From contig CAMCMT010000027.1 in NCBI GenBank assembly GCA_945875915.1, positions 1 through 35,201 of the forward strand: a stretch of DNA of 35,201 nucleotides, given 5' to 3'. This stretch comes from Synechococcus sp. UW140 (lineage in GTDB: Bacteria > Cyanobacteriota > Cyanobacteriia > PCC-6307 > Cyanobiaceae). A model generated the notes under the pieces. It was not told the DNA's origin. It saw only the letters and a program-made list of their open reading frames with translations, and ran no database searches. The translations under genes were made by a program, and so were the position numbers. Numbering within the stretch: the first letter of the stretch is position 1; each line of letters starts with the position of its first letter. Shown piece by piece: positions 26,025 to 29,910 of this stretch.

Positions 26025-26732
26025 ATGGACCTAACACCCCAGCTGGAATCCTTAGGCCCAAGCCGGATCAATCTGGTACTTGAAGCACTGCTATCCAGTG
26101 ATCTGCGGTTAAAAGTCATGCTGGTCTCAGCCAATCGGCTCGGCCTGATGGTTTCGGCCTTGCGCCTCAAGGCGCGCAGGCTATTGGTCGGTGCGATGAC
26201 GACGGAAGGGGAAGCCTTGCCCTATCTCATGGCTGGTCTGCCAGGGCTTTTGCTGTGTAGCGATCGGTTAGAAGCTGGTGATAGCTATTCCATGGTTCGC
26301 CAGGCCCGCCTGCTAGTGCCCGACATCCGCATCATGATGGTTCTTGAAGAATCGAATCCGGATGTGGCTGAGGCAGTGCGATCAAACGTAGATGCAATCA
26401 TTTTTGCGGGTGATATTGGCAATACCAGCCAGCCAATCTCGCGGGGCTTGTTGGCCATTGCCAATCGTCAGACCTATCTCTCACCCACGGCCAAGCACCT
26501 ACTCAAGCACCATTCTCCAGGCAATCCGATCAACAGCATCAAACTCACCGATCGCCAGGACGAGATCCTTTCGATGCTACTTAACGGCGACACTGAACTC
26601 CAAATTGCCGACAAATTAGGAATTTCACTGACCACTGTCAAAGACCATACCAAAGCACTCCGCAGTAAATTTGGCGTCAAAAGTAAGATTGAGTTAGTAG
26701 TGCGGGCCATGCGACTTGCCGTCTTCAGATGA
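26025..26732 (+). CDS. LuxR/NarL-type DNA-binding regulator with degenerate receiver domain
   Basis: A 235-residue protein from ATG 26025; an in-frame TTG at 25968 would add 19 unconserved residues. The C-terminus is a clear GerE/LuxR helix-turn-helix: LTDRQDEILSMLLNGDTELQIADKLGISLTTVKDHTKALRSKFGVKSKIELV. The N-terminal 140 residues have receiver-like alternation, but the acidic pair that should follow strand 1 is replaced (LKVMLVSANRLG) and the conserved lysine region is not evident; an Asp in LLLCSDRLEAGD could be the remains of the phosphorylation site. It may therefore act as a phosphorylation-independent regulator. No kinase lies nearby. The convergent budA gene is a possible but unproven target. 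Confidence 0.85.
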   Translation: MDLTPQLESLGPSRINLVLEALLSSDLRLKVMLVSANRLGLMVSALRLKARRLLVGAMTTEGEALPYLMAGLPGLLLCSDRLEAGDSYSMVRQARLLVPDIRIMMVLEESNPDVAEAVRSNVDAIIFAGDIGNTSQPISRGLLAIANRQTYLSPTAKHLLKHHSPGNPINSIKLTDRQDEILSMLLNGDTELQIADKLGISLTTVKDHTKALRSKFGVKSKIELVVRAMRLAVFR

Positions 26733-26827: not shown

Positions 26828-27682
26828 TTAACTGCGATTGCCTTCGGCAGTAGCCAAGGCCAAGCTGGGATCACCAGTGAGATCGGCAGCTAAGAAGGCG
26901 GCGGTTTCCGGCAGGGCCAGGTGCAGATTTGATTCCGTATGCAACCCCAGCTGGAGAGATTCTGCCACCAACTCGAGCAGATGGCCGCCATGGCGGTGGT
27001 CATCACTAAGAAAATGCAGGTGGTAGCCGGGCACATTAATCGTGCGGGCGTAGTCCGGGCTCCAGAAGCCCACCAAGCTGCCGCTAATGTTTTGTAGTTC
27101 GAATTCCGCTTGGTGGCTGGTGGCGGTAACTAAGTCCGTGCCAGGTGCGCTTTTACAGGCGGTGCGTACCTTAATCCGCTCAAAAAGGCCATGCAAGCGA
27201 ATCGCCACAAACAGGTTGGCGCTTGGACGCAGGCCATCGAGACGCTGACGCAGGTCCGCAAAGCTGCTGACCCCCGCAAAGCTGGCCTCCGTATCGGCGG
27301 CAAAATGGGTCGCCACGAAAAAAGGAGCCAGGGCCGCATCGGGCGCCACTTGGACCGAACCATCGCCGCGGGCTTGCCAGCACACCCCATCCAGCAAAAT
27401 CGCTTCGCCATCAAGGCCATCAAAGGTGCCCAAGCCGAAATCGCCATGGCGGCGAATATCAGCGACGGAAACACATCCCTGGTAGAGCCCCTTCACTAGG
27501 GCGCCAGAGGTAGACACCTGGTAGAGGGTGTGGTGCTCGATATCAAGGGCTTCTGCCAGGGCCGAGCTAATGGCATGGTTGAGACTTTCGCCGCTGCTTG
27601 CGCAATGGGCTTGCAGGGCGGCCCAAAGGCTAGCCGGCAAACGCAAATGGAGGTTGTGAACGGAATCGGGGTGGCTAATCAT
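26828..27682 (-). CDS. budA: Alpha-acetolactate decarboxylase with N-terminal RHH-like extension
   Basis: A 284-residue protein. Residues about 50-275 are an acetolactate decarboxylase, which converts 2-acetolactate to acetoin. It opens with LYQVSTSGALVKGLYQGCVSV and GDFGLGTFDGLDGEAILLDG, and the zinc ligands are His221, His223 and His234 in GYHLHFLSDDHRHGGH, with the same spacing (2 and 11) as characterised enzymes. PDYARTINVPG carries the conserved arginine. Bacterial BudA normally starts directly or with a signal peptide, but here residues 8-45 (HNLHLRLPASLWAALQAHCASSGESLNHAISSALAEAL) look like a ribbon-helix-helix DNA-binding unit of the CopG/HicB type. The gene is 19 bases downstream of the broken acetolactate synthase gene, so its former substrate source in the operon is dead. 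No lesion is seen in budA itself. Confidence 0.9.
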   Translation of the reverse strand: MISHPDSVHNLHLRLPASLWAALQAHCASSGESLNHAISSALAEALDIEHHTLYQVSTSGALVKGLYQGCVSVADIRRHGDFGLGTFDGLDGEAILLDGVCWQARGDGSVQVAPDAALAPFFVATHFAADTEASFAGVSSFADLRQRLDGLRPSANLFVAIRLHGLFERIKVRTACKSAPGTDLVTATSHQAEFELQNISGSLVGFWSPDYARTINVPGYHLHFLSDDHRHGGHLLELVAESLQLGLHTESNLHLALPETAAFLAADLTGDPSLALATAEGNRS

Positions 27683-27701: not shown

Positions 27702-29029
27702 TCAGTGGAGGAAATCTTGATGGACGTTCTGCATCAACTTGAGATTGTCTAAATAATCACTGGGGATGTCGATCAGGACTGGGCAATCGGCCTGCAGGGC
27801 CTCGCGCAGCACCGGGACCAATTGGTCGGCATCGCTAATGCAATAGTCCTTACAACCAAAGATTGCCGCAAAAGCACACTTATCATAGTGGCCCAGCTTG
27901 ACGCCAACAATGCGGCCGTAGTGGGCCTGCTCCTGGAACTCCACCATGGTGTAAGGCGCACTGTTCCAGATCAGGTGCACGAAGCGGCTGCCCAGCCGTT
28001 TGGCCGTTTCCAGTTCGGTGACCGTGAACAGGAAGCCGCCATCGTCCGACACGAAAATCACCGGCTAAGCCGGCCGCAGCAGGTTGGCTGCCATGGCCCA
28101 GGGCAGGGCCACCCCCAGGGTCTGCTGGCCATTGATTACCAACACTTGGCGGGCATGGTCGGCGGAAAATAGCGGCCCATCCAGATGTAGAAGAAGCCCA
28201 CATCAAGGGCAATGGTGGTGTCTGCGGTGACGACCTGCTGCAGCTCATGGATCACCCGCAGGGGGTGCACCAGCATGCCGCCAAGCTGGGCCGCCTCGGC
28301 ATCGGCGCTGCGGCGGAAGGCCTCCTCCACCTGCACCTGGAGTGTGGGCGCCAAGGCCTCGAGGCTGGTATCGAGGCTGGTATCGAGATCGCCGATCAGT
28401 TCCGCCTGGGACAGGAAGGCCTGGTCCTGGTCGATCTCCTGCCCATCGATTGACACCAGGGGGCTGGTCTTGCCTCTGTTCCAGAGGCTGGGATCAAATT
28501 CGATCGGCACGAAGCCCAGGGTGATCACGCAGTCGGCGTCATCGAGCAAGCGATCGGCCGGCTGGTTAAGGAGCAGGCCCAGCTTGCCGGCGTATGGGCT
28601 GGCGGCGGCCCAGCCGCCCGGCCCCTGGACGGTGGAGGCATAGGGCAGGCCAGTGGTGGCCACTGTCGGCAGCACGCACCGCATTGCCGAACATCTAAGG
28701 CAGGAAATGGATCGTCAGGGCCGACTGGGCGTATTTCGTCACCGGTTCATCCCATCCACGCCGTCGAGGGCTTAGTGGGTGTGCTTGATCCGGTCGTCTA
28801 GGGGCACTTCACCGCCGATCGCCAGGACCGGATCCCCCTCCGAGGTGGCCGTGACCGGGCCCGTTACCAGGTTGGTGACACCCGGGCCTGAGGTGACCAC
28901 ACACCCCCCCCAACTTGCCATCGGGCAGGGCGATGGACAGGCTGTCGAGCTTGGCTCCAGGGATGCCAAACACATGGCCCACCCATGCTGTTCCAGCATC
29001 TTGACAAGGGCTTGAGCCCCATTGATCAC
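27702..29029 (-). pseudogene. alsS: Acetolactate synthase (AlsS/BudB type), multiply disrupted
   Basis: A thiamine-diphosphate enzyme gene that would make 2-acetolactate from two pyruvates. Recognisable parts on the minus strand are [16 protein letters not shown], then [90 protein letters not shown] and SDDGGFLFTVTELETAKRLGS. Lesions: a frameshift near 28978-28984, another at the C8 run 28904-28911, a stop at 28772-28774, a stop at 28695-28697, loss of roughly 50 residues after AKLDS and of about 100 before the middle domain, a frameshift near 28145 and a stop at 28065-28067. The large number of lesions excludes sequencing error. It sits between the SDR gene and budA on the same strand, as an acetoin operon would be ordered. 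Confidence 0.92.
28359..28388. repeat. 12-bp tandem duplication in the alsS pseudogene
   Basis: TCGAGGCTGGTA occurs twice in tandem (28359-28370 and 28371-28382), followed by a partial third copy TCGAG. It is in frame and encodes a repeated Asp-Thr-Ser-Leu. Slipped-strand duplication in a gene no longer under selection would explain it. Confidence 0.8.
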
Positions 29030-29085
29030 TTTATCTCCCGAAAATCATGACCGGCCCAATCCGAATTTTAATAAATGACATCAGA

Positions 29086-29910
29086 TCAATGGGCCCGAAC
29101 AGCGGGGCCAGCGGCAGACGTTGCCGTCATCAGGGTCTTTGAAAATCGGGCCACCACCGCCCGGGGCACCAGGCGCAGGGAACGGGCCTTCAAGGCGTTG
29201 ATCCGGCCATCAATGCTGGAGAGCTTGCCCGCAAAGAGCCGCTCCAGCCCCACCTCAGCCACGGCCCGTGCCGACCGGCGTCCCCCCTTGGCAAGGGCCT
29301 CGACCTGGAGGCCGCGCTGGTCCATATCGCTAAAAAAGGCCGTGTCGCTAGGGCCAGGCGACAGGCAACTGACAACCACCCCCTGGTCCTCCAGCTCCAT
29401 GGCCAGGGCTTCGGAGAAATTCAACACATAGGCCTTGGACGCCCCATAGGCGGCGAAATAGGGGGTGGGCTGGTAGGCGGCGGTGGAGGCAATATTGAGA
29501 ATCCAGCCCTTGCCGCGCTGTCCCATCCCAGCGCCATAACGCTGGCAGAGTTCACTAAGGCTCAAGATATTGAGTTGCAACATGCTGGCAACCTGGGCCG
29601 GACCCAGGACGCTGTGCTCGCCGTAAAGTCCAATGCCGGCATTGTTAATCAGGATCTCGATCTCGAGACCCTGATTTTCTGTCAACTCCCAGAGCACTTG
29701 AGCGCTCCCTGGCAGCCCCAAGTCCATTGGGGCTGCCTTCACGGCGACGCCATGGGCCGTCCCCAGCTCCTTGGCCAGGTCGTCGAGCCTGCACTTGCTT
29801 CGAGCCACCAGGACTAAATCGTGGCCACGGGCCGCCAATAGGCGGGCAAACTCGAGGCCAATGCCCGAGCTGGCGCCAGTTACTAAGGCCACTCCTGGGG
29901 GGCGATTCAT
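29086..29910 (-). CDS. Short-chain dehydrogenase/reductase (classical SDR)
   Basis: A 274-residue NAD(P)-dependent oxidoreductase. The cofactor motif TGASSGIG is at residues 11-18, ARSKCR suggests NADP preference, INNAGIG is the conserved NNAG, and the catalytic serine and YxxxK are in NIASTAAYQPTPYFAAYGASKAYVLNF (Tyr and Lys of YGASK). The C-terminus is the longer type seen in DltE/YqjQ-like SDRs. The frame is open to 30354, but the conserved fold begins at ATG 29910, which has a weak GGTAA before it. It lies 56 bases upstream of the alsS pseudogene on the same strand; it could once have served as an acetoin/diacetyl reductase in that module, though the sequence does not look specifically like BudC and the substrate is unknown. 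Confidence 0.9.
   Translation of the reverse strand: MNRPPGVALVTGASSGIGLEFARLLAARGHDLVLVARSKCRLDDLAKELGTAHGVAVKAAPMDLGLPGSAQVLWELTENQGLEIEILINNAGIGLYGEHSVLGPAQVASMLQLNILSLSELCQRYGAGMGQRGKGWILNIASTAAYQPTPYFAAYGASKAYVLNFSEALAMELEDQGVVVSCLSPGPSDTAFFSDMDQRGLQVEALAKGGRRSARAVAEVGLERLFAGKLSSIDGRINALKARSLRLVPRAVVARFSKTLMTATSAAGPAVRAH

Follow-up and report, generated by a model that had tools for sequence, protein, structure and literature searches.

A predicted ribbon-helix-helix domain at the N-terminus of an acetolactate decarboxylase in Synechococcus and other bacteria

The gene at positions 26828-27682 (minus strand) of the window, the whole 35,201-nucleotide stretch of Synechococcus sp. UW140 DNA that was analysed, encodes what is predicted from sequence and structure modelling to be a cytoplasmic acetolactate decarboxylase (ALDC) with an N-terminal ribbon-helix-helix (RHH) domain of the CopG/Arc type. 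Besides making acetoin, such an RHH-ALDC protein may also regulate genes.

The fusion gene and its two domains

The gene is an intact open reading frame (ORF) with an ATG start, encoding 284 amino acids followed by a stop codon. An internal ATG start that would yield a bare ALDC was rejected, as there is no Met between residues 2 and 60. The following features were placed in the window.

26828-27682, minus strand: RHH-acetolactate decarboxylase fusion gene (intact ORF; Pfam AAL_decarboxy; TIGR01252; purifying selection against same-genus homologues)
27539-27658, minus strand: predicted RHH domain, residues 9-48 (RHH_1 matches in homologues; model matches; strand and turn pattern)
26876-27526, minus strand: ALDC catalytic domain, residues 53-269 (PF03306; PDB ALDCs by sequence and fold)
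27014-27022, minus strand: zinc ligand codons of His221 and His223, in GYHLHF (position; invariant columns)
26981-26983, minus strand: zinc ligand codon of His234 (position; invariant column)
27702-29030 (end approximate), minus strand: pseudogene of alsS, for a catabolic acetolactate synthase, adjoining the fusion gene on its upstream side (lesions against the intact L081 alsS)
29086-29910 (start approximate), minus strand: short-chain dehydrogenase/reductase (SDR) upstream of alsS (ORF; 82% identical neighbour in L002)
26028-26732, plus strand: LuxR/NarL-like regulator, convergent with the fusion gene (ORF; named from sequence)

Residues 53-269 match Pfam AAL_decarboxy (PF03306) with an E-value of 9e-73 and 244.6 bits against a cut-off of 25, and the protein matches the NCBI equivalog TIGR01252 with 222.6 bits against a cut-off of 180.65. 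The best solved relatives by sequence are the ALDCs 6j3d, 4bt2, 5xne, 6inb, 6j92, and 5yho, with alignments that start at residue 50-53. Three of these (4bt2, 6j3d, and 5xne) also match the catalytic domain by fold. Residues 1-51 are not part of the ALDC domain. The histidines of the zinc-binding HxH...H pattern (H221, H223, and H234), which the preliminary description had read in the enzyme part, are present and are invariant across 22 homologues. By these matches, the window protein can be assigned to the acetolactate decarboxylase family. After the ALDCs, the next-best folds for the catalytic domain are PPC/DUF296-type proteins (2dt4, 3hwu, 2h6l, and 3htn), some of which were deposited as putative DNA-binding proteins. 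The plant PPC/DUF296-type fold comes paired with AT-hooks, which is a loose parallel to RHH-ALDC.

The N-terminal segment is laid out as a strand at 9-16 (HNLHLRLP), a helix at 17-30, a turn at Gly31-Glu-Ser, and a helix at 34-46. The short strand and two helices that had been described earlier were thus found again; they read from the letters at 9-16, 18-31, and 33-47, and AlphaFold2 (AF2) places helices at 17-30 and 34-46 both in the full-length model and in a model of isolated residues 1-55. On its own, the window's segment gives weak, sub-threshold matches to the RHH models NF041551 (YlcI/YnfO; E 0.0013) and HicB (0.089), and an equally weak match to the PHROG 'Arc-like repressor' (0.0023). 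Though weak in the window, the RHH identity of the segment is clear because its homologues match RHH_1. This Pfam family is matched by 12 of 20 homologous N-segments (best E 9.4e-8), and one full-length homologue (L014) exceeds the gathering scores for both RHH_1 (28.1 against 20.5 bits) and AAL_decarboxy. Among the weak NCBIfam matches, RelB-like antitoxin models are the most frequent. In a PDB sequence search with a profile of the N-segment, the meaningful lines are CopG, AvtR, and VapB. TALE repeats and designed helical repeats dominated that search and were set aside, as their single stretches mostly have very low scores.

A PDB search with the model of residues 1-55 returned almost only RHH proteins, with Z of 5-6 and a maximum of 6.1; individual Foldseek E-values are poor, as expected at 55 residues, and the weight lies on the uniform list together with the RHH_1 sequence matches. 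The list includes Arc, CopG, AmrZ, NikR (2wve), MatP, HicB, many antitoxins, and the RHH domain of PutA (2gpe and 2rbf). The support from the model is for the helices, the RHH strand being one that pairs only in a dimer and the model being of a single chain. AF2 confidence is low at residues 1-9 and 46-68, and the linker in the full-length model has a pLDDT below 50, so that the RHH cannot be positioned relative to the ALDC.

Conservation was counted over 43 distinct RHH sequences of RHH-ALDC proteins. On the inward side of the strand, positions 11, 13, and 15 mostly hold aliphatic residues. On the outward side, position 12 is basic in 58% and acidic in 7% of sequences, and position 14 is basic in 70% and acidic in 2%. 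Gly31, Leu42, and Leu46 do not vary, and all but one of the sequences (42/43) have Ser or Thr at position 33. Read across the alignment, these residues follow the pattern of a working RHH domain. Its overall net charge is mostly negative (-5 to +1), which is unfavourable to DNA binding, and its outward strand residues differ among clades. Within the genus, omega is 0.06-0.22 for the RHH codons and 0.05-0.11 for the ALDC codons; thus, the RHH segment is under purifying selection. Family profiles, the structure model, and conservation together indicate that residues 9-48 form an RHH domain, as the preliminary description had proposed.

Distribution and gene neighbourhood

A search for other BudA proteins with the same N-terminus, which had been suggested earlier, was productive. 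In the window's family, 350 genomes gave 38 ALDC matches that are full-length and unbroken, and every one of them reaches residue 9 or below, including a divergent one (L108) in which the N-segment was confirmed separately. RHH-ALDC is also present in distant cyanobacterial families (L017, L018, L032, and L033), in Burkholderiales, including Zwartia vadi, in a further genome from a search of Zwartia's phylum (L112), and on plasmid pB (RefSeq) of Ancylobacter polymorphus, an alphaproteobacterium. Most of the ALDCs that have no RHH are either exported, with a hydrophobic leader, or bare, or are BudA of enterobacteria and Vibrio. Three genomes (G042, G323, and G591) each carry one RHH-bearing and one RHH-less ALDC. 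The ALDC matches from Vibrio, Pantoea, and Selenomonas plasmids that start near residue 3-25 owe this to unrelated extensions or signal peptides and were not accepted as RHH proteins. In one cyanobacterium (L019 in G048), two divergent ALDC paralogues that have hydrophobic leaders and no RHH lie side by side in tandem.

On a tree of the ALDC domain, three changes of the RHH label are required. One of the three is L005, which was rejected as an RHH-less case, as its contig begins at residue 41 and the segment is cut by the contig end. L053, a Burkholderiales ALDC of the same clade, is fully without the RHH and looks like a real loss. The history of the fusion could possibly be one origin followed by losses, or two origins. 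The gene itself seems to have been lost repeatedly within the window's family, since broken or fragmentary copies are found in several picocyanobacteria (L034/L044 in G234, L039/L043 in G412, L041/L045 in G313, and in G876, G940, G949, and G969).

The commonest conserved context of RHH-ALDC is the alsS operon, often of two genes. The fusion gene lies downstream of an intact alsS in freshwater Synechococcus/Cyanobium-like genomes and in Burkholderiales, and the order is reversed, with RHH-ALDC before alsS, in G604 and Ancylobacter; the two genes are 11-55 bp apart over both orders. Marine Synechococcus and distant cyanobacteria have RHH-ALDC with no adjacent alsS. The intact SDR-alsS-budA module that the preliminary description had assumed for the window did not hold up. 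Compared with the intact alsS of L081, that of the window is broken by several frameshifts and three in-frame stops and has lost two pieces of about 225 and 75 bp; the module is not functional as such, while RHH-ALDC stays intact beside it. Other ALS-like proteins of the window genome are only about 27-30% identical to AlsS. In L093, only the last 116 residues of alsS are left beside an intact RHH-ALDC; in L094, L096, L100, and L101, too, the alsS near RHH-ALDC is truncated or absent. The LuxR/NarL-like regulator keeps its place beside the ALDC in the same-genus L002, L003, L004, and L005.

In Bacillus and Enterobacter, alsSD/budABC are controlled by the LysR proteins AlsR and BudR, respectively (PMC8187413, PMC10466699). 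A divergent LysR gene adjoins 9 of the 12 RHH-less alsS-linked loci (L114-L120, L124, and L126, the exceptions being L053, L058, and L059) and none of the 24 RHH-bearing alsS-linked genomes, where the nearest is 2.2 kb off (L080); adjacency was scored with a single Vibrio LysR query, and the contrast is confounded by phylogeny, as all of the LysR-bearing loci look enterobacterial or Vibrio-like. This exclusion is suggestive only, and it fits an RHH domain that substitutes for a separate regulator. Footprinting within several groups found no operator-like palindrome or repeat common to the alsS upstream regions compared. An upstream block conserved between L002 and L004 is only partly kept in L081 and was not seen beyond.

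Proposed role of the RHH domain

By analogy with PutA, RHH-ALDC could dimerise through its RHH domain, bind an operator, and autoregulate its pathway, and this reading is given a probability of about 0.5. Judging from the fold, two chains would pair via the RHH strand, and the paired strands would bind an operator near the alsS-ALDC promoter. Where alsS has been lost, the operator would lie at the RHH-ALDC gene's own promoter or at another site. The enzyme would in this way regulate its own pathway, a role that the divergently encoded LysR (AlsR/BudR) has in enterobacteria. DNA binding is favoured circumstantially by the polar/basic outward strand residues, the operon with alsS, and the exclusion of an adjacent LysR. 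It is a guess that acetolactate or acetoin modulates the DNA binding, as proline does for PutA. A more elaborate form, in which acetolactate sensed by the catalytic domain would control whether the RHH binds its operator, so that a one-protein switch replaces AlsR/BudR in picocyanobacteria and some proteobacteria, is tentative and rather doubtful.

Several observations count against autoregulation, namely that a common operator was not found upstream of alsS in the groups compared, that the domain is mostly net acidic, that its outward face varies, and that the RHH is retained where the alsS operon is absent. The same observations favour the main rival, a serious possibility, in which the RHH is real but serves purely as a clamp for oligomerisation, holding ALDC subunits together or stabilising them, and binds no DNA. 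The RHH domain of PutA also mediates dimerisation, and adding an RHH turns a monomeric PutA dimeric (PMC5293562). However, the central outward positions 12 and 14 are rarely acidic and often basic, which is not required of a pure clamp, and an adjacent LysR and the RHH did not co-occur at the alsS-linked loci compared.

It is improbable that the RHH binds DNA or a partner to localise the enzyme (to the nucleoid, a plasmid, or another protein, in an antitoxin-like manner) and leaves the acetoin operon unregulated. The persistence of the RHH after the decay of alsS in the window and in alsS-less loci would suit localisation, as would the RelB-like models among the weak NCBIfam matches. Against it, no toxin gene was recognised among the conserved neighbours of RHH-ALDC, which were compared by clustering rather than by full annotation, and the alsS operon is the usual setting of the gene.

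That residues 1-50 are an extension of the ALDC dimer interface, and not an RHH, is very unlikely. The sub-threshold scores of the window's own segment would agree with such an extension, but homologues match RHH_1, the structural neighbours are dominated by RHH proteins, alignments to solved and RHH-less ALDCs, which do not have the segment, begin only at about residue 50, and L053 is entirely without it although it belongs to the same clade. The degraded alsS next door could raise doubt on local sequence quality, but an artefact of a mis-called start codon or a chimeric assembly is hardly credible given that dozens of independent assemblies, single-contig genomes and a RefSeq plasmid among them, contain the fusion and that divergence across the segment is synonymous-biased.

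The acetoin pathway has been noted in Black Sea Synechococcus (PMC6776005). If autoregulation by RHH-ALDC is true, the protein would be a second trigger enzyme, unrelated to PutA, whose substrate is simple and whose gene is small; it would also explain the control of acetoin operons that have no AlsR/BudR. RHH-ALDC would matter for fermentation and redox balance in picocyanobacteria, and for metabolic engineers who move ALDC genes.

Comparison with known systems

Few enzymes have their own DNA-binding domain, and PutA is the standard case. In the trifunctional PutA (proline utilization A), an N-terminal RHH of about 50 residues gives dimerisation and autogenous repression of its own regulon (PMC5293562). 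RHH-ALDC is alike in joining a metabolic enzyme and an N-terminal RHH on one chain. It differs in its unrelated catalytic domain and pathway, its much smaller size, and its very short linker; for PutA, DNA binding and ligand switching are demonstrated, whereas for RHH-ALDC they are proposed. The window protein is not itself a PutA, as the PRODH and P5CDH domains are absent and only AAL_decarboxy was found in the Pfam scan. The statement in the preliminary description that no characterised enzyme of this kind is known can be kept for ALDCs in the literature searched, but it does not apply to RHH enzymes in general, of which PutA is a characterised example. No literature on an ALDC-ribbon-helix-helix fusion was found in a search that left most subscription journals outside its scope, and co-mentions of CopG appear to be passing only. 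Both halves are known, and the fusion of an enzyme with an RHH is known from PutA; as far as searched, the RHH-ALDC pairing appears to be new. Automatic domain-architecture listings may already contain it.

RHH-ALDC resembles BudA/AlsD (PF03306, TIGR01252; 4bt2, 5xne, 6j3d, and 6inb) in its complete catalytic domain, its zinc histidines, and, in relatives, its alsS operon partner. Unlike RHH-ALDC, the enterobacterial and Vibrio BudA operons have no RHH and possess a divergent LysR gene instead. With repressors of the CopG/Arc/MetJ type, RHH-ALDC shares the strand-helix-helix order, the turn with an invariant Gly and a Ser/Thr, the alternating strand, and a small N-terminal domain; unlike in those repressors, the domain is fused to an enzyme and is net acidic. 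NikR, which has an RHH and an ACT domain and is represented among the structural matches by 2wve, also joins an RHH to a ligand-binding domain on one chain. Its second domain, unlike that of RHH-ALDC, senses nickel and is not an enzyme.
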